From: Nicotiana tabacum
Taxonomy: Eukaryota; Streptophyta; Magnoliopsida; Solanales; Solanaceae
Length of the DNA: 64,000 bases
Direction: 5' to 3'
Assembly: GCF_000715075.1 (NCBI RefSeq)
Contig: NC_134093.1
Location: forward strand, 95,526,826 to 95,590,825
A program made the translations under genes and the position numbers. Shown here one piece after another: positions 1 to 31,573 of this stretch. Position 1 is the first letter of the stretch; each line of letters starts with the position of its first letter. The notes below the pieces were generated by a model, which had not been told where the DNA came from, made no database searches, and saw only the letters and a list, made by a program, of their open reading frames with translations.

Positions 1-1619
1 GGGTAGCTTGGCCTTTATTTCAGCAGAGAAGCGGCCACTAGCTTTGGACATTCAGTCCTTGGCTAACAGACTTGTGAGGTTGGATATTTCAGAGCTCAGC
101 CGAGTTCTTGCATGCGTCATTGCCCAGTCTTCACTATTGGAGCAGATCAAGGCTCGACAGCTTGATGATCCGCACTTGTTGGTCCTCAGAGAGACGGTAC
201 TATAGGGTGGTGCCAAAGAGGTTACTATCGGTGAGGATAGTGTTCTGCGACTACAAGGTCGTCTATATGTTCCTAATGATGTTGGCTTGAGGGAGAGGAT
301 TTTAGGGGAGGCACACAGTTCTCGATATTCCATTCACCCAAGTGCTACGAAGATGTATTGCGACCTGAGGCAGCATTATTGGTGGCGGCGAATGAAGAAA
401 GACATATTTGAGTATGTAGCTAGGTGCCTAAATTGCCAGCAGGTTAAGTATGAGCACCAGAGGCCAGGTGACCTACTTCAGCAGATGACTATACCTGAGT
501 GGAAGTGGGAGCGCATTACTATGAATTTCGTAGTTGGGTTGCCGCGGACCTTGCAGAAGTTCGATGCAGTTTGGGTCATTGTTGACAGATTGACCAAGTC
601 GGTGTACTTCATCCCAGTTGTGAATATGTATACTTCAGAGAGGTTGTCCCAGATTTATATTCAGGACATAGTTCGGTTGCATGGTGTGCCTATTTCCATC
701 ATATCATACAGAGGCTCTCAGTTCACCTCACATTTCTGGAGAGCAGTACAGAGTGAGTTGGGGACCCGTAAGAGCTCAGCACAGCGTTCCATCCACAGAC
801 CGACGGACAGTCAGAGCGGTCAGTTCAGATCTTGGAGGACACGCTCAGAGCATATGTGATTGACTTTGGAGGGCAGTGGGATCAATTCTTGCCCTTGGCC
901 GAGTTTGCTTACAATAACAGTTACCAGTCCAGCATCGAGATGGCTCCATTTGAGGCTTTATATGGTCGGCGATGTCATTCTCCCATCGGGTGGTTTGAGC
1001 CCGGTGAGGCTAAGTTATATGGTACTGATTTGGTGAAGGATGCCTCGGAAAAGGTAAAGTTGATTCATGAGCGACTTCGCACGGCACAGTCCAGATAGAA
1101 GATTTACGCGGATCAGAAGGCGCGTGATTTATCATTTACGGTGGGTGAAAAAGTTCTCTTGAAGGTTTCGCTGATGAAGGGGATTATGAGATTCGGGAAG
1201 AAGGGCAAGTTGAGCCCAAGGTTTATAGGCCCATTTGAGGTGTTAAGCCTAGTTGGGGAGGTTGCTTATGAGCTTTCCTTATCTCCCAGTCTATCGGGAG
1301 TTCATCTGGTTTTTCATGTGTCTATTCTCCGAAGGTATCATGCCGACTTGTCACATGTGTTAGACTTCAGCATGATTCAGTTAGATGAGAGCCTGGTTAT
1401 GAAGAGGAGCCAGTTGCCATTGTGGATATGCAGGTTCGCCAGTTGAGGTCCAAGAAGATTTCTGCGGTAAAAGTCCAGTGGAGGGACCAACCAGTCGAGG
1501 AGGCGACTTGGGAGTCCGAGGAGGACATGCGGAGCAGATATCCACATTTATTTGGCACTCCAGGTATGATTCTAGACCCGTTCGAGGACGAACATTTGTT
1601 TAAGATGTGGAGAATGTAA
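1..1619 (+). pseudogene. Gypsy pol 3' region: integrase and chromodomain (decayed)
   Basis: The reading frame carries the zinc-binding HHCC region (ending CLNCQQVKYEH, about 430-465), the integrase core (WERITMNFVVGLP, about 510-545) and a terminal chromodomain (VKVQWRDQPVEEATWES, about 1465-1520), ending at TAA 1617-1619. It is broken by a TAG at 203-205, a frameshift near 760-830, a TAG at 1096-1098 where element B keeps CAG, and a frameshift near 1385-1420. Two of the three DDE carboxylates are gone: the usual ITMDF reads ITMNF and the usual ISDRG reads ISYRG. The element is therefore dead for integration. RNA from this region could still be transcribed, but nothing here shows that. Confidence 0.88.
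1602..1614 (+). other. Polypurine tract of element A
   Basis: A purine run (AAGATGTGGAGAA) lies directly before the TG that starts the LTR. Element B has AGAGGTGGAGA at the same place. This is the expected plus-strand primer site for reverse transcription. Confidence 0.65.
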
Positions 1620-2338
1620 CAACCCGATCGGTCGTTTTGCTTTTTAGAACCCTGTTTCCCTAAATAAGACCCCCCCCCCATACGTGTTTCTACTTTTTAT
1701 GGCTTGCGGGGATGGTTAGTTCGGGATTTGGAAGGATTCGGGTTGAAATTGGAACACTTGATTCCTTAAGGTTGGCTAAAAAGGCTAAGTTTGACTTCGG
1801 TCAACGTTTCGAGTGAACGACCTCGGAATCAAGATTTAACGGTTCCAATAGGTTCGTATGATAATTTTGGACTTGGGCGTATGTTCGGATCGGGTTTTGG
1901 ATGACCCGAAAGCATCTCGGCGCCTAATAGTGAAAGTTGGTTCTTTGAAGGTTTTTAAAGTTCTTTAAATTTGGTTTGAAGTAGGTTTTGGTGTTATCGA
2001 GGTCCAAATGGAATTCTGAGACCGGGAATAGTTTCGTAATGTCATTTATGACTTGCACGTAAAATTTGGAGTCATTTTGAGTAGTTTAAGTATGTTTCGG
2101 CGCGTTGGGAGTAAATTAAAGAACTTGTAGTTCATATTTTGATTCAATTGGTTTGGGTGTGATTCTTAGTTTTGATGTTGTTTTGTACGTCCCGAGAGTT
2201 TGATAGAGTCCATTTTATGATTCCAAACTTGTTGGTATGTTAGGACGGGGCCTCGGGGGCCCTAGATGCCGTTCGGACGATGCGCGGATTGAGTTTGAAA
2301 CTAAAAAGGGCTGCTGGTTGCACCAGTTCTAGTGTAAT

Positions 2339-2636
2339 CGCACCTGCGAGCCTTGGGCCGCAGGTACGAGCCCACAGATGCATGGTTCGTGCCGTAGAAG
2401 CGGCTGGGAGCATTTGGCTATGGACCGTAGATGCGTGCGAGTTTGCGCACCTGCGAATGCACAGGTGCGATTGGGGAAACCGCAGAAGCGACTATGTTCG
2501 CAGGCACGCGTCGAAGGTCACAGGAGCGGCTCTAGATCCGCAGATGCGAACGTTGGCCAGCTGGGGGAGGACCACACCTGAGAGATTTCCTCCGCAGAAG
2601 CAGCACCGCAGGTGCGGCAGTGGCTTCGCAGGTGCG
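2339..2636 (+). repeat. Phased CGC-N4-GCG word array in LTR A
   Basis: About 14 copies of a 10-bp word of the form CGC-N4-GCG, with N4 = ACCT, AGGT, AGAA or AGAT and scattered single-base decay. Starts at 2339/2359, 2373/2393, 2426/2446, 2499/2519/2539 and 2607/2627 are exactly 20 bp apart; 2460/2481 is 21. Between pairs the steps include 14 and 33 bp. Some pairs (2339 with 2359) are near reverse complements and could fold. Confidence 0.85.
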
Positions 2637-3215
2637 AGATTCGCTGGGCTGTGAGGTTGTTTTAAATATGGGACTTAGGCATTTTGCCCACTTCTTGGGG
2701 GCGATTTTGGAGTTGGATAGAGAGGGTATTTTCATCAACTAATTGAGGTAAGTAATTTCTATCAAATGTGAGTTAAATACATAGTTTATGGGTAGATTAT
2801 AATATATAAATTAGTAAAAATCTTGGGGTTTAGGTGAAAACCTAGATTTTGATAAAGATAAGATTTAACCACATTTGATAAGGAACCTAGTGAAAATCAT
2901 ATATTTGAGTTCATAATGTCATGGGTAACAACTTTGTCCGAAAATTTCGGGAATCCGGGCACGTGGGCCCGGAGGTGAATTTTAGGAATTTTTCAAATAG
3001 GCTTGGGAAATCACTTTGATAGTTAAGATATGAACTTTTGAACATGTATTGATCATTTTATATAATATTTGACTAGTTTCGAGTCGTTTGAAGGTTTGAG
3101 CACAACCTTGGACCGAAAAGTAGGCTTTGAGACGAGGTACGTCTCTTTTCTAACCTTGTAAGAGGGAATTATCCCCATAGGTGAAATGATTAACATGTGT
3201 TTCTATTTGTGGGGG

Positions 3216-3253
3216 GCTACGTACGTACTAGGTGACGAGAGTCCGTACGTAGC
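3216..3253 (+). repeat. LTR hairpin with AGGTGACGAG loop (element A)
   Basis: The 10-bp arm GCTACGTACG at 3216 pairs perfectly with CGTACGTAGC ending at 3253, around a loop containing AGGTGACGAGA. The same loop with a different stem is found in LTRs B, C and D. Confidence 0.8.
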
Positions 3254-4390
3254 TACTAATTATGCTATTGCCCGGGTAGTCTAGGACACATATCATGCTA
3301 TACTTGAGATGTTTGCACCCTTAAATGTTAATTTAATTGCTTAAGTTAGATTGAAAACTTATAAAGGAATTTTTAAGAGGTTAAATTTCACTTACTTGAA
3401 GTTGTGAATGGAACATTTGACTGTTATTGAGAATTTATGTTTCTTTAAAGTATTTTTCTTTGTGGAGCTGGCCGAACACCTCGGTAGCAGATAGATGCAT
3501 CTATGGTTCGTGTCGTTCGACCCTCGGCAGTGCACAGTTTAAATATTTATGTTGGATCGGGTCGTATAACCTCGGCATAATTTGCGCATGATACATCTTT
3601 GGAATCATTTATAATTGATATTGCTTCATTGGCTTGAGATATAAATTATTAAATGATGAAAATTAATTCGGGACTTAGTACTTGTGAAAGAATTATTTAT
3701 TATTTCCTGTTATTGAGTTTTCAGTATTATTCACGAAATCCATGCTTAGTTGTAAATTTTGGCATATTATTGTTAGCCCATAGTAAGTGTCTAAGTCGAC
3801 CCCTCGTCGCTACTTCTTCGAGGTTAGACTGGATACTTACTGGGTATATGTTATTTATGTACTCACGCTACACTTCTGCACTTAAATGTGCAAGATCTGA
3901 GCCATGTGCATCTGGATATCAGTTCGGCGCGCGCACTTGATTACCACTTCGAGGCTTCATGGTGAGCTGCCTTCTGAGCTCGTTCTACAGCAACCAGAGT
4001 CTTTCTTTGATTGTATTTCCTTCTGAGCCCGTTCTGCAGCAACCAGAGTCTTTCTTTGATTGTGTTTTTTTTTTGTCTATTTCACTTCGGACAGTAAATT
4101 AGTATTCTTTTGTATATTCTACTAGATGCTCATACACTTGTGACATTCGGTCTTGGCACACACTAGTAGACTTGCGGCTTTGGTTTTATTCTGTGACTAT
4201 GGTTGCACACAGTTGCTTTCGTGTTATTTATTTTAGATCTGTTATTTCTCAAATTCTTTTTAAATTAAGGAAAGTTTAATTACTTGGAAAAAAATTGTTA
4301 AAAAGAGGAAATCACGTGACTAGTTCACAGTTGGCTTGCCTAGCGGCAGCGTTAGGCGTCATCACAAATGAAATTGGGTCGTGACAGTCT

Positions 4391-5415
4391 TTAATGAGTA
4401 ACTAATTCATCATCTGCTAAAATTCTCCCACACGAATGAAGTGATCCTCGTACTTCTTGATCCATTATCTCAAATAAGGTTAAGTATTGACCTACCTCTC
4501 CCTTCTTAGGGAACTCATCCTCTAAGAATATGACATCCTGTGATTCAAACTCAGTTACACTCCCACTGTCTTGCTGACCTATAAACACATAACCCTTTGA
4601 GGTTTCAAAGTATCTTATAAAGATACTTTTCTTCCCCCCCGGGTCCAATTTGCCATATTTGTGAGAGGAATCATGTGTATAGGCAGCACAACCCCAAGGT
4701 CTTAATACACTCAGGTCGGGTTGTCTTCCAGTCCATAACTCATATGGAGTAGTAGTAATTGATTTTGTAGGCACTCGGTTAAGTACAAAGGTGGCAGTAA
4801 GCAACGCATCACCCCAGTAACTAATTGGGAGGTTAGCTTGTGCCATCATTAACCTAACCATTTCTAGGAGCGTTCTATTTCTTCTCTCCGCAATACCATT
4901 TTGTTGTGGAGTATTTGGGATAGTCAACTGATGAACTATTCCCTTTTCATAACATAAATTATTAAACTGGGTTGATAAGTATTCACGGCCACGGTCAGTT
5001 AGAAGAGCTTTTATCTTCTTGTCTAATTGATTTTTCACTAAGCTCATATAGCGTTTGAAGCAACTTATTGCTTCTGATTTGTGGGAAATTAAATAGACAT
5101 AACTAAAACGGGTAAAGTCATCAATAAATGTGATGAAATAACTTGCTCTATGCCTAGCCCTAACATTCATAGGCCCATATATGTCTGAATGGACTAATTG
5201 CAAAGGATATTCAGCTCTAGTCGCCTGACCAAAAGGTTTTCTTGCAGATTTTCTAGCTAGACAATTTTCACAAGTGGACAATTCCATATGTTCAATGTTG
5301 GAAAGCAAACCTTATTTTGCTAACCTTTGCATTCTTTGTTGGCCAATATGAACAAGTCTAGCATGCCATATGTTTATATCACTATCATATTTATGTGAAG
5401 AAACAAACATAGAAA
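4391..5415 (-). pseudogene. Copia integrase (pre-integrase zinc finger plus core)
   Basis: The minus-strand frame gives IWHARLVHIGQQRMQ, then CENCLARKSARK (zinc-binding HHCC), then the integrase core with HSDIYGP, LLTDRGREY and PQQNGIAERRNRTLLEMVR. All three catalytic carboxylates (Asp, Asp, Glu) are visible. A TAA near 5311 interrupts the zinc-finger region (...RLAK stop GLLSN), and the frame ends at 4391, five bases from the border with element A. The link to protease upstream also needs a change of frame near 5430. This is a relic of a protein that would cut and join element DNA into the genome. Confidence 0.85.
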
Positions 5416-5429
5416 AACTAGCATTATTA

Positions 5430-5790
5430 TTAAATGAACATAATAATTAAACCTCCGGTCACATGACCAAAACCAAATAAAGTTGAACCAAAAGTCAACT
5501 TGGCAGAATTGCCATGACAAAACAAGTCAAATCCTAGCTTAAGCAAAACTGAAACTGAAATAACATTCCGGTGAATTATTGGTGCAAAGAGAACATCATG
5601 TAGTATTAGGTCTCGACCACCACGTAGGACTAACTTGTATGTACTGATCCCTTCAACATCAACTTTATTATTATTGCCAACATATATCCACTTTGCTCCA
5701 CATGAAACTCGTCCAAACTCAACAAAGGCACTGCGTTCCCAGGCTATGTGGTCTGTTGCTCCTGAGTCTACAATCCACAAAGGATTAGAT
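5430..5790 (-). pseudogene. Copia aspartic protease region
   Basis: The frame reads LWIVDSGATDHIAWE at its start, which is the copia protease active site (DSGA) with the usual following TxH. It runs to a TAA at 5430. The sequence after that continues in another frame into the pre-integrase region, so a frameshift lies near 5430-5440. A run of stops separates it from gag on the other side. Confidence 0.82.
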
Positions 5791-6703
5791 TAAGTTAGAA
5801 AAATAGAACTAGAAACACAAAGTTCACTAATTCGAGCATCGTGAAATACCTTTCGTGGAGGCTCAAAGCAATCTCTGGCATAGTGACCCATCTTGTCACA
5901 ATTATAGCATTTCACTTTAGCAACTTTGACACGTTTGGGATGTTTGTTCTTGCCTTTTTCAGTCTTTGCTCTTTTAGCAGGCTGAACTGCAGAGCTTGAG
6001 GTGGCCCTCTCTTCTTTCCCCAGTTCCTTTTCTTTGAATCACTCTTGGTTTTGGAGGTTGTTGCCATGTGCAACTCAGCTATTGGCTTTGCAGCCTCAAG
6101 TCATTCCTCCTCTAACTCAAGGTGTCTCTGGACATCTTCCAGAGTTGTGATTCACTCATTATGGGTCAAATGCATTTTTATATGATCCCAAGAACTAGGT
6201 AAAGAGAGTATGACAGCTTGGATTTGTTGTTCATCAGTCAACACATGACCAACATCTTTCAACTCCCCGATAATATTTGTCATTTGCCTCAGATGTGTTT
6301 TCATTGAATATTCTGGGCGTTTCTTATATGAATCAAATTTGATCGTTAAGGATCGTAGCCTTGCAGTGGAACAGGTACCAAACCTTTTCCTCAAATCATT
6401 CCAAAGATCCATAGCTCTTTGGTGATCCTTAAACTCCCTTAGAATGTGATCATCCAAGGTGCTCAACAACGTAATGCGAGCAATGGAGTTCTTTTTCTTC
6501 CAACTGTCATAGGCTTCACGCTCACGCCTATGTTGAGCAGTGTTACCTTCCTCAGGCTTATTCATGACATTGTTAATGGCCTCCAGAGCCTCTTGCTCCT
6601 CTAGCACATACTGGACTTTCAAGCTCCAGGTTTTGTAGTTATCACCATTGAGTTTCAACCCTTTGTTGAGCTCAGCAACAATGTTTTTCGAAGCAGTAGT
6701 CAT
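5791..6703 (-). pseudogene. Copia gag with CCHC zinc knuckle
   Basis: The ATG at 6703 opens MTTASKNIVAELNKGLKLNG and a copia gag domain with the typical NYKTWSLKVQYVLEE and LLSTLDDHILREF stretches. It stops at TGA 6152-6154. Beyond the stop the same protein can be followed in shifted frames (ITTLEDVQRHLELEEE) to a zinc knuckle CYNCDKMGHYARDC (C-X2-C-X4-H-X4-C) at about 5872-5914. At least one stop and one frameshift separate the parts. Confidence 0.85.
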
Positions 6704-7152
6704 TCTTTAACAAAATAAAAAAATATTATGAGGATCATGTAAAAATAAAAATGATGCAAGGCATGATGTTCGGCATACATACTTATTATGATACTAAGCA
6801 TCAATTGATTAAGTTAATAAACACATATATTAATCATGGAGTCGAAAGTTCACTATGTTCCCAATCATCGTCCAAGAATTAAAATATTATGAAAATTAAC
6901 ATATTCAATTATTTAGCTCAGTGTCTTAATCATTTTTAAGACAACATAATTATCTATCATGATTTTATAATCCCATGTGGATCATAAGTTAACAAATAAC
7001 TTATATTAGCATGCAAATAAAATTAATGTCAAACTAATTAACATTTATTACATGTTATACAAATTTACATGAAATTTATTTTAATGTTAAACTAATTATC
7101 ATATTAAACATGTTAAACAAATTAACAAGTATTCCTAATATTAAACTAATAA
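6704..7152 (-). other. Copia leader, no gene
   Basis: AT-rich sequence upstream of the copia gag ATG, rich in AATTAACAT-like words. I see no LTR end, primer-binding site or open frame. It is probably untranslated leader or the remains of the 5' LTR. Confidence 0.45.
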
Positions 7153-7602
7153 TGGCATGACCCAATTTCACCTATAGGTCGTGATGGCGCCCAACACTAC
7201 AGCTAAGTAAGCCAACTAGTAATTTGAACCCATATTCAATTCTTTTAAAATTAACCGAGTAATTTAAACTCTTCTTACTTGCTAGGATTAAAAACAATAT
7301 GAAAAGATCTGGTAAATTAAAATAACCAAGAAAATAATTAAATCAAAATATTCTACTAGTGTGTGTGCCAAGACCTGGTGTCACAAGTGTATGAGCATCT
7401 AGATTATACAAAAATTATAAATACTGTCTGGAATGAAATAGACAGAATAAAAATTCAGGAAGAGGCACTAGTTGTTGCAGAACGGCTCAGAAAGCAGATC
7501 ATTCTTAAAGTTTGATTAAAGTATTGCTAAGGTATCTCATACCTACTGTTTGATTTAAGTTTCATTCAGAAGTTGAGATGGTCCTTTAGCTAAATAGATA
7601 AA
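7153..7602 (-). repeat. Fragment of a gypsy LTR 3' end
   Basis: Begins TGGCATGACCC and follows LTR A in reverse complement through the GATGGCGCCCAAC, AAGCCAAC and GCAGAACGGCTCAGAA segments. It is cut at 7602 where the LTR of element B begins. The sequence right of element B (17573 onward) resumes the same LTR class in the same orientation about 100 bp further in, so the two may once have been one LTR. Confidence 0.7.
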
Positions 7603-8281
7603 TGTCACGACCCGAAATTTCCCACCGACGGGACCTTGATGGCGCCTAACATTTCACTTGCTAGGCAAGCCAACGTTAGAGAATCATTAAATCAATTCCT
7701 TATATCCATTCAGTAATTAACAATAATTAACTAAGATGAAATATAAAAAGTGCGGAATATCATAAAACTGTATTAACTACTACCACCCGGATCTGGAGTC
7801 ACAATTCACGAGCATTCTACAATTTGCTACAAGTAATAATCAGAAAGAAATACAACTGTCTAAATGAAAGAAACAGTAGAACAGAAAAGATAGACGGAGA
7901 CTTCAAGGTCTGTGAACGTCGACAGATCTACCTTGAGTCTCCGGACAGCGGACTAATAGCAAAATCTCGATCAACCCGAGCCGGTATCAAAATTTGCACA
8001 GAAAGTGCAGAGTGCAGTATCAGTACAACCGACCCCATGTACTGGTAAGTGTCGAGCCTAACCTCGACGAAGTAGTGATGAGGCTAAGACAAGGCACCTA
8101 TAAATCAACCTGTACAATTTAACAGTGTATATGCAAATAACAGAAATGAAGAACTAAACAGGAAATGTTAGGAGGGGAACATACTGAGGGGAATACAAGA
8201 TAAAGAACTACAACAGAATAATCACCGGAGCAGTCAATATACCATGAATCAACAGGAATAGTGAATACAGTAAGGAAAAAT

Positions 8282-8495
8282 GCACGGTATCACCCTTCGT
8301 GCTTTTACTTTAAATCTCACCATAAAATTAATAGAAACGGCACGGGATCACCCTTCGTGCATTAATACTCACAATATGGCACGGCATCACCCTTTGTGCA
8401 TTAACACTTACAATATGGTACGGCATCACCCTTCGTGCATTAACACTCACAATATAGCACGACATCACTCTTCGTGCATTAACACTCTCCCTTAC
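8282..8495 (-). repeat. 39-bp tandem repeat of small hairpins in LTR B
   Basis: Five units start at 8282, 8340, 8379, 8418 and 8457; the last four are 39 bp apart. Each unit has GCACG...CGTGC arms around CATCACCCTT, so each could form a small stem-loop. An open frame through the repeat is a by-product of the 39-bp (13-codon) period and is not called a gene. Confidence 0.85.
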
Positions 8496-8731
8496 CATAA
8501 TGCAATGCATAAATAACAACAGGGAGATAGAATAACAAGTACAAACCTTACTTCAACATTTGGTTCCATAATATCAATCTCAACTTTGAAATAAAAACTC
8601 AATTATCACCAGAAAATCCGTAAACATGATAAGAACGATAAATTGAACAATACTAGTATAACACGTAGCAATTTGGCATAGGAATGAGACAATATAAGAA
8701 AAACAGAGAAACATGAAAAAACAGGTAAATT

Positions 8732-8770
8732 GGCAGCGCATAAGTACTCGTCACCTTACATATACGCCGC
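8732..8770 (-). repeat. LTR hairpin (element B, left copy)
   Basis: Arms GGCAGCGCATAAGT and ACATATACGCCGC pair around the loop ACTCGTCACC (sense GGTGACGAGT). One arm position differs from the right LTR copy (GCAGCG here, GCGGCG there), which loses a pair. Confidence 0.72.
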
Positions 8771-9382
8771 TCACATGAATTTCACTTAGCAAGTAATCTA
8801 AGGTTCCTAATTTCCTCAAGTCAGGGTTAGACACAACACTTACCTCGCTCTGAAGTCCACTTTATTCTCAATCACAGCTTTTTCTTTGGAATTCACCTCC
8901 AAACCACTCGTATCTATTCAAAAATGACTCAATAATATCAAATATTGCTAAAGGAATCAATTACATTACATAAATTAAATTTCTCAAATTTTTCTCCAAA
9001 AAGTCGAAAAATCGACCCCGAGCCCGCTTGGTCAAAACCCGAGGTTCGGACCAAAATCTATTTACCCATTCATCCCCGAGCCCGAATATATAATTGGTTT
9101 TGGAATCCGACCTCAAATTGAGGTCTAAATTCTCAAATTCCCGAAATCCCTAGTTTCTACCCTAACCCCTAATTCTACCATGAAAACTCTAGATTTTAGG
9201 TTGATAATTCAAGAAATGTAATGGGTAATTGAAAGAAAATGGTTTAGAATCATTTACCAACACTTTGGGGAAGAAAATGACTCTTGAAAATCGCCTCTAC
9301 CCGTTTGGTTCTTGAAAAATGTTGAAGAAATGGCTTAAACCGGTGTTTGGAGTCTGTTTTAAGTCACTCGACATGCCTTCAT

Positions 9383-9682
9383 CGTGTTTGCGAGAGGTTT
9401 GTCGTGATCGCGATGCACAGCAGCCTAAGGCCTTCGCGTTCGCGAGTCTTTCTATGCGTTCGCATAAGGCAGCTCCCCCCAAGCCTTCGCGTTCACGACC
9501 CAGTGGACGCGTTCGCGTAGAAGAACATGACCCCCTCCCCCAGGTCCCTTAAACTATCGCGTTCACGTGAGACAGATCGCGTTCGCGAAGGGTACCACCC
9601 CCAACGCTTCACGTTCGCGAAGAAGAAATTTCCCCTGCCCCATTTTACCTTTCGCGTTTGCGACACTACCTACGCGAACGCG
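9383..9682 (-). repeat. Phased CGC-N4-GCG word array in LTR B
   Basis: Eleven 10-bp words, mostly CGCGTTCGCG, start at 9383/9403, 9435/9455, 9488/9508, 9558/9578, 9610 and 9653/9673. Every pair is exactly 20 bp apart. Decayed positions are mainly CpG losses. The array is wholly absent from the other LTR of the same element. Confidence 0.88.
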
Positions 9683-10418
9683 AAGAAGGGCACACCAGAA
9701 CTGCTGCTGCAGCAAAAATCTCAGATTTTCTAAGTGCAAATCACCATGTAGCCTATCCGAAACTCACCCGATCCCTCGGAGTTCCAAACCAAACATGCAC
9801 ACAAGTCTTAAAACATCATACGGACCTGCTCGCGCGATCAAATCGCCAAAATAACACCTAGAACTCCGAATTTAGCACCAAATCAAATGAAATTCTCAAG
9901 AATACTTTAAAATTACTATTTTCTCAACCGAAAGTCCGAATCACATCAAATCAACTCCGTTTCTCACCAAATTTTTCAGACATGTCTTAAATATCATAAT
10001 GAACCTGTACCGGGCTCCGGAACCAAAATATAGACCCGGTACTAACAATGCCAAACATAAATCAATTCTTAAAAACAATTAGTTTTCAGACTTTTAATTT
10101 TCATCAAAAACTCATAACTTGAGCTAGAGACCTCCGAATTCGATTCCGGGCACACGCCCAGGTCCCATAATTCGATACGGACCCACCGAGACCGTCAAAA
10201 TATGGATTCGGGCCCGTTTACCAAAAATGTTTATCGAAGTCAACTAAAATCAACTTTTAAGGCAAAAATTCTTATTTTCATTAGTTTTCAATATAAAAGC
10301 TTTTCGGAAACCTGTCCAGACTACGCACGCAAATCGAGAAGGGTAAAAATGAGATTTTTAAGGCTTAAGAGCGTAGATTCAAGTTCTAAAAAATAAGATG
10401 ACCTTTTGGGTCATCACA

Positions 10419-10434
10419 ATCTCCACCTCTAAAA
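10419..10434 (-). other. Polypurine tract of element B
   Basis: On the minus strand the sequence reads TTTAGAGGTGGAGAT directly before the LTR start TGTGATGACCC. It matches the tract before LTR A in position and character. Confidence 0.65.
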
Positions 10435-11960
10435 CAACCGTTCATCCTCGAACGGACATAGAAAAGTACCTGGGCTGGTGAAAAAGTGGGGATATCTACT
10501 CCGTATATCGGACTCGGACTCCCAAGTAGCTGCCTCAATAGGTTGACCTCTCCACTGCACTCGAACTGAAGGGTATCTCTTTGATCTTAACTGGCGAACT
10601 TGCCGAGCTAGAATTGCCGCCAGTTCCTCCTCGTAAGTCAAATCCTTGTCCAATTGGACAGAGCTGAAATCTAACACATGGGACGAATCGCCATGATACT
10701 TTTGAAGCATGGACACATGGAATACCGGATGAACAGTTGCTAAACTAGGTGGCAACGCAAGCCTGTAAGCCACCTCTCCCACTCTCTCCAGAATCTCAAA
10801 AGGTCTGATATACCTAGGGCTCAATTTGCCCTTCTTTCTGAACCTCATTACACCCTACATGGGTGATACCCGAAGTAACACTCTCTCTCCGACCATGAAT
10901 GTAACATCACAAACTCTACGGTCAGCATAACTCTTCTGCCTGGACTGAGCTGTGCGAAGTCGATCCTGAATAATCTAGACCTTATCCAAGGCATCATATA
11001 CTAAGTCTATGCCCAACAACCGAGCCTCTCCCGGCTCGAACCACCTAACTGGCGACCGACACCGCCTACCATATAATGCCTCATAGGGAGCCATTTGAAT
11101 GCTCGACTAGTAGTTATTGTTGTAGGCGAACTCTACAAGGGGCAAGAACTGATCCCACGATCCTCCAAATTCTATAACACAAGTGCGGAGCATATCATCC
11201 AAGATCTGAATAGTACGATCGGACTGTCCGTCCGTCTGAGGATGGAATGATGTGCTCAACTCAACCCGCGTACCCAACTCACGTTGTACTGCCCTCCAAA
11301 ATGCGAGGTAAACTGCGTACCTTGATCAGAAATGATATACACGGGCACACCGTGAAGACGGACGATCTCACGAATATAATCTCTGCTAACCGCTCCGAGG
11401 AATAGGTAACTGCCACAAGAATGAAATGTGCTAACTTAGTCAGCCTATCCACAATAACCCATACGGCGTCGAACTTCCTTTGAGTCTGTGGGAGTCCAAC
11501 AACAAAGCCCATAGTGATACGCTCCCACTTCCACTCAGGAATCTCCATCTGCTGAAGTAAACCACCGGGTATCTGATGCTCATATTTTACCTGCTGACAG
11601 TTTAGGCACCGAGCTACGTAAGCAACTGTATCTTTCTTCATCCTACTCCACTAATAATGTTGCCGCAGGTCATGGTACATCTTGGCAGTGCCCGGGTGAA
11701 TAGAATACCGAGAACTGTGAGCCTCCTCAAGGATCAACTCGCGAAGCCCATCCACATTAGGCACACAAATACGACCCTGCATCCTCAAAACTGCGTCTTC
11801 TCCAACAGTAACCTTCTTGGCACCACTGTGCTGCACTGTGTCTCTAAGGACAAGTAAATGAGGATCATCATCCTGCCGATCTCTGATGCGCTCAAACAAA
11901 GAAAATCGAGCAACTGTACAAGCTAGAACAAGGCTAGGCTCAGAAACATCTAACCTCACG
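10427..11960 (-). pseudogene. Element B integrase and chromodomain (decayed)
   Basis: From 11960 downward: the pre-integrase region (EEAHSSRYSIHPGTAKMYHDLRQHY), CLNCQQVKYEH zinc cysteines, core WERITMGFVVGLP (first catalytic Asp replaced by Gly), ISDQGTQF in a shifted frame, FEPGEARLLGIDL, and the chromodomain [17 protein letters not shown] at about 10500-10560, stopping near 10427. Breaks include TAG for Trp at 11651-11653, TAG at 11107-11109 where element A has CAG (YQSSI), a stop at about 10975-10977, TAG at about 10855, and several frameshifts. The chromodomain would direct insertion toward marked chromatin in a live element. Confidence 0.88.
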
Positions 11961-11962
11961 AA

Positions 11963-13535
11963 CTAGTTGGCCAAGGCCTGAACATCTAATGCAAGCGGTC
12001 TCTCACCAACTGGAATATATGCAAGGCTACACATGCTGACTGACTTTCTACTCAAAGCATCGGCCACCACATTGGCCTTCTCGAGATAATACAATATAGT
12101 GATATCATAGTCTTTCAATAGCTCCAGCCACCTCATCTACCTCAAATTGAGTTCCTTATGCTTGAACAAATACTGCAAGCTATGATGATCAGTGAATACC
12201 TTACATGGCACGCCGTAAAGATAGTGCCTCCAAATCTTCAGCGCGTGAACAATGGCTGCCAGCTCTAGATCATGAATAGGGTAATTCTTTTCGTGAACCT
12301 TCAGCTGCCGTGAAGCATATGCAATAACCTTTTCACCCTGCATCAATACCGCACCCAGACCAATACGAGATGTGTCACAATATACTGTATAAGATCCTAA
12401 ACCTGTGGGTAACACCAATACCGGTGTCGTGGTCAAAGCAGTCTTGAGCTTCTGAAAGTTCGCTTCACACTCTTTTAACCACCTAAACGGGGAACCCTTC
12501 TGGGTCAATCTGGTCAACAGGGCTGCTATGGATGAAAACCCCTCCATAAATCGACGGTAATAGCCCGCCAAACCCAGAAAACTACGGATATCTGTAGCTG
12601 ATGTGGGTCTAGACCAATTCTGGACTGCCTCAATCTTTTTAGGATCCACCTGAATACCCTCTGCTAATACAATGTGACCCAAGAAAGCAACTAAACTCAA
12701 CCAAAACTCGTATTTTGAGAACTTAGCATATAACTGGCTGTCTTTCAGAGTCTGAAGAACGATCCAAAGGTGCTGCTCATGCTCCTCTCGACTGTGGGAG
12801 TAGATCAAGATATCATCAATAAACACAACCACAAAGAAATCCAAGTAGGGTTTGAACACCCGGTTCATCAAATCCATGAATGTTGCTGGGGAATTTGTCA
12901 ACCCAAATGACATCACTAGAAACTCATAATGCCCATACCGAGTCCGAAAAGTTGTCTTAGGAACATCGGATGCCCTAATCCTCAACTGATGGTAGCCAGA
13001 TCTCAAATCAATCTTGAAAACACCTTGGCACCCTGAAGCTGATCAAATAAATCATCAATCCTCGGCAATGGATACTTGTTCTTGACAGTGACTTTGTTCA
13101 ATTGCCGATAATCTATACACATCCTTATCGGTCCATATTTCTTCTTCACAAACAATACCAGTGTACCCCAGGGCGAGACACTAGGTCTAATGAAGCCCTT
13201 ATCAAGCAAATCTTGCAACTGCTCCTTCAATTCTTTCAACTCTAGCGGGGCCATGCGATATGGCGGAATGGAAATAGGCTGAGTGCCCGGAGCCAAATCA
13301 ATGCAGGAATCAATATCCCTGTCGGGTGGCATCCTTGACAGGTCTGCAGGAAACACCTCTGGAAACTCACGAACAACGGGCACCGAATCTATGGAAGGAA
13401 CCTCCGCACTAGAACCACGGACATAAGCCAAATAAGCTAGACACCCCTTCTCGACCATATGCCGAGCCTTCACATAAGAGATAACCCTGCTGGCAGAATG
13501 GCCAAGATTCCCTCTCCACTCTAATCGAGGCAACC
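11963..13535 (-). pseudogene. Element B reverse transcriptase and RNase H (decayed)
   Basis: The N-terminal part has [20 protein letters not shown], then [40 protein letters not shown]; the second part has the polymerase centre [20 protein letters not shown], and the RNase H motifs [29 protein letters not shown] and [10 protein letters not shown]. Both catalytic Asp of the FIDD box are present. A one-base deletion near 13003-13010 shifts the frame between the two parts, TAG at 12137-12139 and 11963-11965 interrupt the end, and another stop lies near 13537. Clearly recognisable but not translatable as one protein. Confidence 0.9.
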
Positions 13536-13965: not shown

Positions 13966-15430
13966 CTGGCTGTCTGACCCCTGCCTCTGGCTAGCTGAGT
14001 AGGTGGTGCAGCAACTGGTGCCGGAACTATGGCATGCGAACTCTGATGTTGTGAGCTGCCCGTTGCCCGAGGGCAAAATTTAGCAATGTGCCTCGGATCA
14101 CCACAAGTATAACATAACCTCGGCTGCTGTGATTGTTGACCCTAAAACTGACCCTGTCGACCTGAATAACCACCCTGATAACTCTGGAGTGGAGGTGCAC
14201 TAATAGGAGCTGGTGGTGCATTATAGGCTAGCTGGTCGGAATAATGCATCTGAGGGCCACGGCCACCTGAGGCACCGTGGGATGCATGGAGCGCTGAATG
14301 AAACGGCCTGGGAGGATGGCCTCTACCAAAAGTACTCCTGACTCTAGATAAGGCACCGCTGAACTCACTGGAATGACGAGGCCTCTTGTCAGACCCCTGA
14401 CCTCCCTGAGTAAGAACCATTTCGACTCGTCTGGCGATATTAGCAGCCGCATGAAAAGAAATCTCACTCCCAGTCTCCTTAGCCATCTGCAATCTGATAG
14501 GCTGAGCAAGTCCATCAATAAACCTCCTCACCCTCTCTCTCTCGGTCTCTCTCTCTCGGTGGGAAGCAGAAGAATGGCATGAGGGGCCAAATCCACAAAA
14601 TGGGTCTCATACTGAGTAACAGTCATACTGCCCTACTGGAGACGCTCAAACTTACGGCGATGCTCCTCTCTCAATGTGATAGGCAGAAACTTCTCTTTGA
14701 AGAGCTGAGAGAACTGGTCCCAAGTAAGAGCGGGCGACCCAGCTGGTCTGGTCAACAAGTAATCTCTCCACCATTTCTTGGCAGAACCAGTCATCTGAAA
14801 TGCAGCAAAATCAACCCCATTGGTCTCTACTATACCCATGTTTCGTAGAACCTTGTGACAGCTGTCAAGATACACCTGGGGTCCTCTGAAGAAGCACCAC
14901 TGAAGTGAATAGGAAAGAGCTTGGTAAACCTGTCCAATCTCCATAAATCCTCAAAAGACATAGCTGGCCCATCTCCGACATGTGCTGCAATAACTAACCG
15001 GCAGAACTAATCCGACTGGCTGAGCTACTGGAGCATGATACTGGGGAGCTATCTGCTCCAGAGTGGGAATGGTGGGAGTCTGGGCTCCTCCTCCAGCCTG
15101 AGAGACTGCTGGTGCCATGGGAAATGCGCCAGTCTGGGCCACACTCTCCATAAGGCCCACCAAACGGACCAAAGCGTCCTGAAGTACTAGGGTAGCAATG
15201 AACCCCTCCGGAACCTGAGCTGGTCCGGCAGGAACAGTCTGGGCTGGAACCTCCTCATCAAGCTCTATCTGAGGCTCCACTGCTAGGGCTGCTGCTCGGG
15301 CCCTAGGCTGAGCCCTACCCTTGCCTCGGCCTCTGGCACGGACTCGGCCTCGACCTCTGCCCCGCGTAGGAGCTGTCACTGGAGGCTCTGGCTGCTACTC
15401 AGCTGAGGAAGCGGTACGTGTCCTCGCCAT
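13966..15430 (-). pseudogene. Element B gag with zinc knuckle (decayed)
   Basis: The ATG at 15430 opens MARTRTASSAE, followed by an Arg/Gly-rich basic N-terminus, the capsid-like part (WWRDYLLTRPAGSPALTWDQF, VRRFIDGLAQPIRLQM) and a zinc knuckle CYTCGDPRHIAKFC at 14073-14114. After the knuckle come RG-rich repeats (ARGRGQTARGRGQ). Three in-frame TAGs lie at 15395-15397, 14633-14635 and 14142-14144, each at a place where CAG (Gln) is the likely ancestor. An AG-dinucleotide-rich tract near 14533-14570 (ERERETERERE) may be a slippage-prone site. Confidence 0.88.
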
Positions 15431-15632: not shown

Positions 15633-16224
15633 TGTCATGACCCGAAATTTTTTACCGACGGGACCGTGATGGCGCCTAACATTTCACTTGCTAGGCAAGC
15701 CAACGTTAGAGAATCATTAAACCAATTCCTTATTTCCATTCAGTAATTAACAATAATTAACTAAGATGAAATATAATAAGTGCGGAATATCATAAAACTG
15801 TATTAACTACTACCACCCGGATCTGGAGTCACAATTCACGAGAATTCTAGAATTTGCTACAAGTAATAGTCAGAAAGAAATACAAATGTCTGAATAAAAG
15901 AAACAGTAGAACAGAAAAGATAGACGGGGACTTCAAGGTCTGTGAACGCCGACAGATCTACCTTGAGTCTCTGGACAGCAGACCAATAGCAAAATCTCGA
16001 TCAACCCGAGCCAGTATCAAAATCTGCACAGACAAGGCACCTACAAATCAACATGTACAATTTAACAGTGTATATGCAAATAATAGAAATGAAGAACTAA
16101 ACAGGAAATGTCGGGAGGGGAACATACTGAGGAGAATACAAGATAAAGAACTACAACAGAATGATCACCGGAGAAGTCAATATACCATGAATCTACAGGA
16201 ATAGTGAATACAGTAAGGTAAAAT

Positions 16225-16440
16225 GCACGGCATCACCCTTCGTGCTTTTACTCTAAATCTCACCATAAAATTAATAGAAACGGCACGGCATAACCCTTCA
16301 TGCATTAACTCTCATATCATGGCACGACATCACCCTTCGTGCATTAACACTCACAATATGGCACGGCATCACCCTTCGTGCATTAACACTCACAATATGG
16401 CACGGCATCACACTTCGTGCATTAACACTCTCCCTTATCA
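16225..16440 (-). repeat. 39-bp hairpin tandem repeat, second LTR
   Basis: Counterpart of the repeat at 8282-8495, again with five units of GCACG...CGTGC. Unit sequences differ slightly from the partner LTR (for example CATAACCCTTCATGC in the second unit), showing independent decay. Confidence 0.82.
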
Positions 16441-16673
16441 CAATGCAATGCATAAATAACAACAAAGAGATAGAATAACAAGTACAAACCTTACTTCAAC
16501 ATTTGGTTCCATAATATCAATTTCAACTTTGAAATAAAAACTCAATTATCACCGGAAAATCCGTAAACATGATAAGAGCGATAAATTGAACAACACTAGC
16601 ATAACACGTAGCAATTTGGCATAGGAATGAGACAATATAAGAAAAATAGAGAAACATGAAAAACAGGTAAATT

Positions 16674-16712
16674 GGCGGCGCATAAGTATTCGTCACCTCA
16701 CATATACGCCGC
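16674..16712 (-). repeat. LTR hairpin (element B, right copy)
   Basis: GGCGGCGCATAAGT pairs with ACATATACGCCGC around a loop containing TTCGTCACC. The stem is better than in the left LTR copy. Confidence 0.72.
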
Positions 16713-18207
16713 TCACATGAATTTCACTTAGCAAGTAATCTAAGATTCCTAATTCCCTCAAGTCAGGATTAGACACAACACTTACCTCGCTCCGAAGGCC
16801 ACTTAATTCTCAATCACAACTTTTTCTTTAAAATTCACCTCCAAACCACTCATATCTATTCAAAAATGACTCAATAATATCTAATATTGCTAAAGGAATC
16901 AATTACATTGCATAAATAAAATTTCCCAAATTTTCCTCCAAAATGTCAAAAAATTGACCCCGGGCCCGCTTGGTCAAAACCCGAGGTTCAGACCAAAATC
17001 CATTTACTCATTCATCCCTGAGCCCGAATATATAATTAATTTTGGAATCTGACCTCAAATTGAGGTCTAAATCCCCAAATTTCAGAAATCCCTTGTGTCT
17101 ACCCTAACCCTAATTCTATCATGAAAAATCTAGATTTTAGGTTGATAATTCAAGAAATATAATGGGTAATTGAAAGAAAATGGTTTAGAATCACTTACCA
17201 ACACTTTGGGGAAGAAAATGACTCTTAAAAATAATTATTTTTAAACTTTTAATTTTCATCAAAAATTCACAACTTGAGCTAGGGACCTCCGAATTCGATT
17301 CCGGGCACACGCCCAGGTCCCATAATTCGATACGGACCCACCGGGATCGTCAAAACACGGATCCGGGCCCGTTTACCAAAACTATTGACCGAAGTCAACT
17401 AAAATCAACTTTTAAGGCAAAATTTCTTATTTTCATTAGTTTTCAACATAAAAGCTTTTCGAAAACCTGCCCGGACTGCGCACGCAAATCGAGGAGGGTA
17501 AAATGAGATTTTTAAGGCTTAAGAGCGCAGATTCAAGTTCTAAAATATAAGATGACCTTTTGGGTCATCACACGTGTACCCAGTAAGTATCAAGCCTAAC
17601 CTCGAAGAGGTAGAGACGCGACGACCGACTTTGACACTTACTAAGGGTCAATAATAATAATGGAATTAAAACTAGAATATCCAAATCAACATGATTCACA
17701 GAGTTAACAATAATTTTATTTAACCACCAAAAATAATTAAATTCCTTCAAATGCAACAATTTCCAATCTATTAATTAAATTCACAAACTGCAATAAAAAT
17801 ATCAAGGCATCGAATAATAATTATTATTATTAGGCATGATTTCTGCCGAGGTCGTACGGCCTGATCCAGAGTGTCGTGTACACTGCCGATGGACGTGCGA
17901 CGCGATCCATAGATGCATCTATCCTACCGAGGCATTCGGCCCGCTCCACAAGAAATGAGGACATTTTCCTATGTATCTCTGGAAGGAGAGTATATTTATT
18001 ATAAGATCAATTCGAGAGGATGAACAATTTATTTTAACAATTAATTAATTTAAACAAAAAATTGAGCATATGATATTTTCATCTTTTAATATTTTCCCCT
18101 ATCAATTCACAATATATACCAAATAATTTAATTAAATAACGGATACAATTTACACAAGTAATCCATGCTTTGAGTCCTAAAATACCCGAATTTTAGCACT
18201 AATAGTT

Positions 18208-18832: not shown

Positions 18833-19021
18833 CGTGATCGCAAACAATGCCACGCGATCGCGATGCACAAACTGGCCCAACTTACGCGATCGCGGACTTG
18901 CCCACGCGATCGCATAGAACAAATTTTTCTGTTGTCCAATTAAGCCTACGCGATCGCAACCCCATTCACGCGATCGCGTAGAACAAAGTCGCCTCTGCCC
19001 AAATTACACTACGCGATCGCG
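18833..19021 (-). repeat. Phased CGCGATCGCG array in LTR C1
   Basis: Seven words with N4 = GATC (a perfect palindrome) start at 18833/18853, 18885/18905, 18949/18969 and 19012. The three pairs are exactly 20 bp apart; pair-to-pair steps are 32, 44 and 43 bp. The word is preceded alternately by T (odd) and C (even members), and the even members are followed by TAGAACAAA-like text twice, so the array looks like amplified pair units. Confidence 0.9.
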
Positions 19022-19520
19022 TATAAGGAAATCAGAAGAAAAATACCAGCAGCTATCAGCAGTCTCCCAAAGGCCAAAAGTGATCCGTTAGCCGTCTGAA
19101 ACTCACCCGAGCCCCTCGGGACCTCAACCAAATATACTAACAAGTCCCAAGACATCATCCGAACTAAGTCGAACCCTCAAATCACACCTAACAATGCTAA
19201 AACCATGAATCATCCTCCAATTCAAGCTTAATGAAACTTAAGATTTCCAACTTCTACATTCGGTACCGAAACCTATCAAATCAAGTCCGACTGACCTAAA
19301 ATTTTGCACACAAGTCATAAATGACATAACAGAGCTATGAAATTTTTCGGAACTGGATTCCGACCCCGATATCAAAAAGTCAACTCTCCGGTCAAACTTC
19401 CAAACTTAAATTCTTGTTTTAGCCTTTTCAAGCCTAATTTAACTACGGACTTCCAAATAAAATTCTGAATATGCTCCTAAATCCAAAATCACCATACGGA
19501 GCTATTAGAACCGTCAAATC

Positions 19521-20154
19521 CCGATTCTGGGAGCGAGTCCACTTCTGCCAAACACTGACCGCACCTGCGATCCCAGCTGGGCAGGTTCAATCCCGCTTCT
19601 GTGACTCGAGGGCCGCTTCTGCGGTGCTGCACCTGTGGCCCAAAATGTGAAGGTGCAATTGCACCAAACACAGCAGTGCTTCATCAATCACACATGTCCA
19701 AAATTGTTCTGGGGTCGATCCGAATCATACCCAGAAACCCTGGGACCCCATCCGAATATACCAACAAGTTTCAAAACACATAACGGACCTACTCTAGGCA
19801 AAAAATCACATCAAACAACATCGATTCAATGAATCGCAACCAAATTCAAGCCTATTGAAACTATGAACATACGAATTCCAAAACTAATGTCGATTCATAC
19901 CAAAACAACTCTGATTGACTTCAAGTTTTACACATAAGTCATAAATGACATGACATACCTATTCCAACTTCCGGAATCGGAATCCGAACCCGATATCAAT
20001 AAAGTCAATTCCCGGTCAAACTTCTCAACCTTCCAAACCTTTAACTTTTTAATCTTCGCCAATTCAAACTGAAGCGACCTACAGACTTCAAAATCAACAT
20101 TCGGACACGCTCCTAAGTCCAAAATACCATACAGGGCTATTAAATAATATGCAA
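19521..20154 (-). repeat. LTR segment C2, second partial LTR in tandem
   Basis: After C1 the LTR text starts again at the word array and repeats the downstream part (ACCCTGGGACCCCATCC, CATAAATGACATGACA, TCCGGAATCGGAATCCG, CATACAGGGCTATTA). C1 and C2 are diverged copies of the same LTR portion but carry different words. The right edge near 20154 joins gag-derived sequence of element F. Confidence 0.65.
19522..19657 (-). repeat. Phased word array in LTR C2 (TTCT/ACCT type)
   Basis: Words CGCACCTGCG and CGCTTCTGCG with decayed relatives start at 19540/19560/19580, 19594/19614 and 19628/19648, all 20 bp apart; steps between groups are 14 bp. The words belong to the LTR A type, not to the C1 type lying 500 bp away. 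Confidence 0.75.
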
Positions 20155-29982: not shown

Positions 29983-29994
29983 GCTCTAATACCA
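29983..29994 (-). other. Primer-binding site of element D
   Basis: Sense TGGTATTAGAGC, three bases from the LTR end, differs by one base from TGGTATCAGAGC, complementary to the 3' end of initiator Met-tRNA. Confidence 0.75.
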
Positions 29995-31427: not shown

Positions 31428-31573
31428 CGCGAACGCGAAAGAACCCTCGCGTTCGCGAATCACAAACTTGCTTCAGCCCAAAATTACTCATCGCGAACGT
31501 GATGACCTAAATGCGAACACGAAGCTTACTTAGCTCAACCCTACGGGAACGCGAGACCAACATCGCGAACGCG
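31428..31573 (-). repeat. Phased CGC-N4-GCG array in LTR D (GAAC/GTTC type)
   Basis: Six words start at 31428/31448, 31492/31512 and 31544/31564, each pair exactly 20 bp apart, with steps of 44 and 32 bp between pairs. N4 is GAAC or its complement GTTC. Confidence 0.88.

Follow-up and report, generated by a model that had tools for sequence, protein, structure and literature searches.

Introduction

The closest described system that we found is the RM boxes of Sireviruses, which the available part of the original description reports as palindromic, CG-containing and present in at least 8 copies per element, lying upstream of the TATA box in the LTR, forming CpG islands and having an untested function (Bousios et al. 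2010, PMC2829016). Sirevirus palindrome clusters have also been reported to be rich in small RNAs (Bousios 2016, via PMC10760457). A survey of Del (Tekay) LTRs reported a 5' CpG island, described as plastic, from monocot groups; among the five eudicots sampled, with no Solanaceae, no CpG island was reported in the accessible text (Cruz et al. 2014, PMC4029996). The Tnt1 superfamily of Solanaceae LTR elements is described as having diversified its U3 independently of coding sequence (PMC1838419). In VANDAL transposons, VANC21 motifs are reported to lie in one orientation and to have spread by tandem repeats (PMC5735166).

Here we analyzed a 64-kb stretch of tobacco DNA (the window) in which 10-bp words of the form CGC-N4-GCG are arranged in arrays within LTR elements. 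Tekay-type elements can make up a large share of big plant genomes. The arrays and the Sirevirus RM boxes are both palindromic, multi-copy, CpG-rich and upstream of TATA, with middle bases that vary and in RM boxes are element-specific (PMC2829016), and a TATA-like box followed 28 of the 47 arrays collected here. The RM core is CGG...CCG whereas the words here are CGC-N4-GCG, and RM boxes are hosted by Ty1/copia elements whereas these arrays lie in chromodomain Ty3/gypsy elements. The arrays resemble RM boxes in plan without membership, as core and superfamily differ. Unlike here, neither fixed pair spacing nor block exchange is described in the available part of the RM report (PMC2829016), nor word grammar, spacing or TATA register in that of the Del survey (PMC4029996). 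Modular evolution is common to Tnt1 and the arrays, but Tnt1 is a Ty1/copia superfamily with whole U3 variants and, in the accessible description, no palindromic paired words (PMC1838419), whereas replacement here is limited to the array, with homologous flanks retained on both sides. The arrays share with VANDAL/VANC the presence of motif arrays of family-specific sequence in non-coding transposon DNA, but VANDALs are described as DNA transposons with their own binding protein (PMC5735166). The VANC likeness raised in the original prediction proved loose, as near-palindromes with largely unrelated spacers are compared to one-orientation motifs in tandem repeats; spacers here are near random and N4 was repeated directly in 8 and inverted in 6 of 50 pairs, with the qualification that the linkers of array C1 are partly repeated. 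No plant LTR paper with the CGC-N4-GCG letters was found in the literature searched (title and start of abstract), and no description of a fixed 20-bp pair, a TATA register or array block exchange was found there, mostly in titles and abstracts. Palindromic LTR boxes before TATA and a modular U3 are of a known kind; the 20-bp pair, the TATA register and the block exchange of arrays appear to be new.

LTR elements of the window

LTR elements occupy the first third of the window (Table 1). Elements A and B, in which this was tested, have the Ty3/gypsy order with a chromodomain at the integrase end, and their 2772 and 2816 bp LTRs fall within the 2-4 kb of the long-LTR Tekay/Del elements. Judging from chromodomain and LTR length the elements are probably of the Tekay/Del type, the label given in the original prediction; the termini, together with LTR length, would likewise suit the Tekay name. 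Among database matches of the element B reverse transcriptase, a Solanum verrucosum protein scored best (69% identity). An ORF scan found three ORFs of at least 150 aa between the element B LTRs: the RT/RNase H, another with a weak RT match, and a 154-aa ORF (14142-14606) with no Pfam match, positioned where gag is expected. LTR C (minus strand) resembles the element A LTR both to the right of element B (17573 to ~20238) and to its left (7153-7602), so element B probably sits inside LTR C. Element D is on the minus strand with its 5' LTR to the right of ~29998 (the LTR 3' end), and its primer-binding-site-like sequence is one that we take to correspond to tRNA-Met. The 5' LTR of element B has no counterpart of 9292-10066 and hence no array. 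About 775 bp including the array are missing from this LTR, with a junction overlap of ~10 bp, and the two element B LTRs are otherwise ~93-95% identical. Rfam gave no match at the gathering threshold, and no relatives were found in viral contigs searched by RT and by LTR start.

Table 1. LTR elements, word arrays and associated features, in window positions.
Feature	Position	Strand	Remarks
Element A chromodomain ORF	1389-1619	+	directly upstream of 3' LTR
Element A 3' LTR, TGTAACAACCCG...GGGTCGTGACA	1615..4386	+	2772 bp; ends by pattern
Array A, class II words CGCA-NN-TGCG and variants	2339..2636	+	14 words
TATA-like box of element A, TTTAAATATGGG	2661..2672	+	24 bp past last word
GGTAAG splice-donor-like site, element A	2747..2752	+	
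Element B 3' LTR, array present	7603..10418	-	2816 bp
GGTAAA splice-donor-like site, downstream of array B	9253..9258	-	
Array B, class I CGCG-NN-CGCG, mostly GTTC on + strand	9383..9682	-	11 words, five 20-bp pairs
Element B integrase C-terminal SH3 and chromodomain ORF	10429..10854	-	
Element B integrase piece	11279-11650	-	below Pfam cut-off
Element B reverse transcriptase/RNase H ORF	12137..13042	-	
Element B 5' LTR, without array	15633..17572	-	
GGTAAG splice-donor-like site, downstream of array C1	18716..18721	-	
Array C1, class I words GATC	18833..19021	-	7 words
Array C2, class II words ACCT/TTCT	19560..19637	-	4 words
Primer-binding-site-like TGGTATTAGAGC of element D	29983..29994	-	just past 5' LTR
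Array D, class I words GAAC/GTTC	31428..31573	-	6 words, three 20-bp pairs

Words are paired at 20 bp in the window and across the genome

The 64 kb held 20 exact CGC-N4-GCG words, all 20 within five arrays. Perfect words formed 3 pairs exactly 20 bp apart, 13 pairs were found when one C-to-T or G-to-A change was allowed per word, and 18 pairs inside arrays when two such changes were allowed; in many of the imperfect words the deviation is the transition (C to T or G to A) that methylated CpG is expected to undergo. Random placement gave a mean of 0.96 pairs at 20 bp as compared to 12 observed, and 12 pairs were reached in 0 of 3000 placements, at 20 bp or any distance. The spacing of words by 20 bp in five LTR arrays, as originally claimed, is therefore real, and of the 21 such intervals reported the excess was upheld while the exact count came to 18 with degenerate words. 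Hand curation gave 42 words with consecutive intervals of 20 bp (18 times), 14 bp (4 times), 32-34 bp (7 times) and 43-44 bp (4 times), reproducing the recurring steps of 14, 32-33 and 43-44 bp that had been noticed. The distance from array to LTR 3' end was ~1.78-2.08 kb in B, 1.75-2.05 kb in A and 1.43-1.58 kb in D, in line with the ~1.4-2.1 kb first proposed. Array C2 had been placed at 19522-19657; its words were found from 19560 on, with none at 19522. The N4 was mixed in array A (AGGT 4, AGAT 3, AGAA 3, ACCT 2, AGGC 1, AGGA 1), which has steps of 20, 14, 33 and 54 bp, and was GTTC in 7 of 11 words of B, GATC in 7 of 7 of C1, ACCT and TTCT (2 each) in C2 and GAAC in 5 of 6 of D.

Genome-wide abundance was assessed by scanning the window's own genome (3,996,098,646 bp) with the pattern read backwards as the control. 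Exact pairs at 20 bp were found at 154,243 places as compared to 194 for the control, with 11,815 (84 in the control) at 19 bp and 24,819 (27) at 21 bp. A second sample of 200 kb was made up of 20 stretches of 10 kb chosen by coordinate alone; words were present in 11 of the 20 stretches, with 63 words versus 5 reversed words and 15 pair distances of 20 bp. In this sample a gap of four between CGC and GCG was the only one enriched (63 versus 3-10 for gaps 0-3 and 5-10). When the order was turned to GCG-CGC, gaps of 2 (42) and 10 (32) stood out, as expected from the interior of the class I word and the space between paired words. Because the 20-bp excess is sharp both genome-wide and in the position-only sample, the lack of a genome-wide excess, named in the original prediction as the outcome that would speak against it, does not apply. 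In 15 held-out arrays picked for 19/21-bp pairs the intervals were 20 bp in 37 cases, 21 bp in 18 and 19 bp in 4. For most pairs the dissimilarity of the spacers led us to reject a recent tandem duplication as the origin of the spacing; for some linkers in C1, D and B such a duplication was accepted. We also considered whether all intervals are in helical phase, since those other than 20 bp show clustering (R 0.60 at 10.5 bp, n=19), and dropped the idea because the 14-bp steps and shared ancestry spoil the clustering.

Arrays lie directly before a likely core promoter

Arrays were defined as at least 3 words, at least 2 of them exact, with neighbours within 130 bp, and smaller clusters were excluded. 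This gave 32 arrays: the window contributed 5, the 200-kb sample 12 and the 20-bp pairs 15 (at 14 places). A further 15 arrays taken from the 19- and 21-bp pairs brought the total to 47. Arrays were oriented by their likeness to known downstream regions ahead of the TATA count, with C2 turned by hand. Of the 47 arrays, 28 had a TATA-like box (permissive pattern) in the 90 bp downstream and 3 had one on the other side (21/32 and 7/15 downstream versus 3/32 and 0/15 in the two sets); 19 had no downstream match, among them B, C1 and D. GGTAAG or GGTAAA lay within 200 bp downstream in 34 of 47 arrays versus 2 of 47 on the other side (21/32 and 13/15 versus 2/32 and 0/15), which suggests a conserved leader intron in the predicted transcripts of these LTRs. 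At the three sites in Table 1 and at related loci this splice-donor-like sequence stands ~107-156 bp after the last word.

The TATA-like box begins 19-30 bp past the last word in 22 of the 28 arrays that have one and at exactly 19 bp in 11 of 29 class II and III arrays, and genome-wide word-N19-TATAAA was found at 3,080 places versus 118 for the reversed pattern. The word pair nearest the promoter lines up among the four window LTRs (A, B, C1 and D): its spacing is 20 bp in all of them, and its N4 pair differs in each. As a TATA-like box and then a splice-donor-like leader site follow downstream, the array has the appearance of an upstream element of the promoter, placed directly before its likely core.

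Whole arrays are exchanged as blocks between LTR lineages

Sorting the 32 arrays by N4 gave 12 in class I, 13 in class II and 7 in class III, so that the array comes in at least three versions. Class I words are CGCG-NN-CGCG with commonest steps of 20, 32 and 44 bp; class II words are CGCA-NN-TGCG with a mixed middle and steps of 20, 14, 33-34 and 54 bp; class III words are CGCA-WW-TGCG with steps of 20 and 34 bp, then 35, 44 and 55 bp. The labels are imperfect, as the array L036 carries the label III but shows homology to arrays of class II. Flank trees, each of 31 rows, required 9 class changes on the downstream side and 10 on the upstream side, where the minimum is 2 and shuffled labels gave means of 14.5 and 14.4. 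Both trees place array A (class II) close to L027 (class I) and group L028 (class I) with L003, L010, L030 and L034 (class II).

We then compared arrays whose flanks were both related (46 arrays). Of 102 same-class pairs, 84 had homologous arrays (z of at least 4), as against only 2 of 100 different-class pairs, a comparison in which pairs share members and are not independent, and mean flank scores were roughly comparable (0.94/0.92 for same-class versus 0.91/0.75 for different-class pairs). As homology of the array follows class in this way, the array is replaced as a block, or cassette, and whole arrays are exchanged as blocks between LTR lineages. The class I array of L027, taken with no flank letters, matched B (z 7.0), D (z 5.4) and L012 (z 7.4), which was reached by 0 of 200 shuffles, and did not match array A (z -0.5) though the two are close relatives by both flanks. 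Homology confined to the array was also seen across clades between L028 and D (z 7.0). Same-class arrays with unrelated flanks were homologous in 4 of 17 pairs in class I, 2 of 9 in class II and 0 of 11 in class III; block replacement thus holds for classes II and III, while a donor from another lineage is best shown for class I. Across classes, linker homology (z of at least 5) was found in 0 of 156 I-II, 3 of 84 I-III and 4 of 91 II-III pairs; L036, whose class is ambiguous, takes part in three of these four II-III pairs. LTR C carries class I and class II arrays in tandem (18833-19637), the upstream flank being present twice, once with each array, and this tandem stretch looks like an intermediate of a class switch.

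These results correct the original view of one array that is kept while its N4 changes by lineage, since homologous flanks enclose different rulers and non-homologous linkers. Nor does N4 follow LTR phylogeny throughout, different classes lying together in both flank trees. Concerted rewriting of N4 within a lineage was rejected, as the flank trees join different classes whose arrays are non-homologous.

A proposed promoter element of paired dimer sites and its alternatives

Our preferred explanation, to which we give a probability of roughly 0.6, is that the arrays are an upstream promoter element of Tekay/Del-type LTRs composed of paired dimer sites and exchanged as cassettes. Each CGC-N4-GCG word, usually CGCR-NN-YGCG, would be a near-palindromic site for a candidate dimeric DNA-binding protein, two sites 20 bp apart (about two helical turns) would act together as a cooperative unit, and several such units in a row, in most cases ending 19-30 bp before the TATA-like box where one was found, would activate the promoter. 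The three cassette families (I, II, III) have been passed as whole blocks between LTR lineages, probably via template switching during reverse transcription. We favor a dimeric cooperative protein because the word has four-base arms in near-palindromic arrangement around a variable centre and recurs about two helical turns apart before a TATA box; word positions 4 and 7 were complementary in 80 of 100 words versus 49.8 expected by composition. The dimeric or cooperative protein already proposed for these words agrees with the 20-bp spacing, the promoter position, the near-random spacers and the lack of covariation, and the binding itself we infer. Counting against this explanation, the 14-bp step misfits one helical face, the N4 diversity of class II is large for one protein, and 32 of 118 array intervals changed in length, which speaks against rigid spacing. 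We tentatively consider an extension in which the three classes serve as interchangeable locks on the promoter, with a separate host or element protein reading each class and the locks being swapped whole between lineages. If true, escape from silencing or saturation would come by recombination and not by point mutation, with core promoter and flanks kept, which would amount to a modular arms race. The site grammar, at 154,243 exact places and tied to TATA-like boxes, offers a handle on promoter activation or on a silencing shield, and the exchange of array blocks between otherwise stable LTRs is a natural experiment on promoter modularity.

The words could instead matter for their CpG content, a dense methylatable array recruiting methyl-CpG readers (anti-silencing of the MBD7-IDM1-ROS1 type) with the N4 hardly mattering. 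Each word brings 2-4 CpG, and CpG observed/expected was 1.50 in B, 1.95 in C1 and 2.05 in D versus 0.65 in the window. In 13 close pairs CpG was better kept in word arms (0.786 of 459) than in flanks (0.658 of 596), and mismatch was 0.158 in arms, 0.166 in N4, 0.381 in other array letters and 0.197 in flanks, counts that are partly biased, as words were defined in one of the two sequences compared and the alignment may pair words that do not truly correspond. However, a CpG platform needs neither an exact N4 length nor 20-bp pairing, both of which are sharp, and class II/III words are poorer in CpG at the same position (observed/expected 0.98 in A and 0.63 in C2), making this explanation unlikely. 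It is possible that a CpG platform keeps the LTR promoter open, alone or besides protein sites. Somewhat less plausible still are neutral repeat dynamics, in which an old tandem array was amplified, shuffled and swapped without selection on word or spacing. Linkers are partly alike (C1-C1 z 5.3, C1-D z 3.8, B-C1 z 3.2), 9 of 111 within-array spacer comparisons were 7-10/10 identical, and array length varies with intervals shifting by one base, all of which a neutral history would produce. On the side of the promoter-element explanation, spacers are unlike one another where words are alike: mean identity of 10-bp spacers was 3.57/10 within arrays and 3.02 between arrays, with 2.63 expected from composition. 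Among related arrays interval length changed in 32 of 118 array intervals, a figure inflated by the 15 of 46 arrays picked for 19/21-bp pairs, versus 130 of 832 flank intervals; 29 of the 32 array changes were of one base, and 61 of the 130 flank changes were larger. Drift of this kind does not account for words remaining similar while adjacent spacers reach 50% mismatch (in 74 related same-class pairs, with 86 word pairs kept at 20 bp, N4 0.238, spacer 0.502 and flank 0.258, with the same bias in word definition and alignment), nor for a word plan before TATA that recurs in cassette families with little linker homology.

Paired words might also fold into RNA or DNA hairpins that feed RNA packaging or silencing by small RNAs. 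Pairing between CGC and GCG is always available, arrays A and B gave stronger folding than shuffled sequences (z -3.65 and -2.24), and the excess of small RNAs on Sirevirus palindrome clusters, as argued for maize in the accessible part of PMC10760457, points the same way. Compensatory N4 change between paired words is what this would leave behind, and its absence led us to reject hairpins as very improbable: in 50 pairs taken from the start of contig C1, some sharing one array, N4 was exactly inverted in 6 and exactly direct in 8, inverted identity within classes was no higher than after re-pairing (p 0.37, 0.89 and 0.52), and positions 5/6 were complementary in 17 of 100 words, below the 28.1 expected. 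Of the RNA-folding module suggested originally, folding modestly above shuffles is what stands, and N4 covariation is what does not. We give least credence to VANC-like anti-silencing, in which an element-encoded matching protein would bind each class and demethylate its own family. Motif arrays in non-coding DNA that change by class and are rapidly replaced do recall VANDAL/VANC as portrayed in the available text of PMC5735166, but LTRs with the same flanks bear different classes, the motif plan differs, and a shallow scan of the element B ORFs recognised no candidate binding protein.

Other observations

A possible E-box (CANNTG) occurs inside class II/III words, in 23 of the 63 words of the position-only sample. 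Pieces of Ty1/copia integrase and gag on the minus strand (4391-6706) adjoin element A. The right half of the window contains a KH-domain ORF on the plus strand at 35682-36395 and a further reverse transcriptase ORF on the minus strand at 45545-46237.
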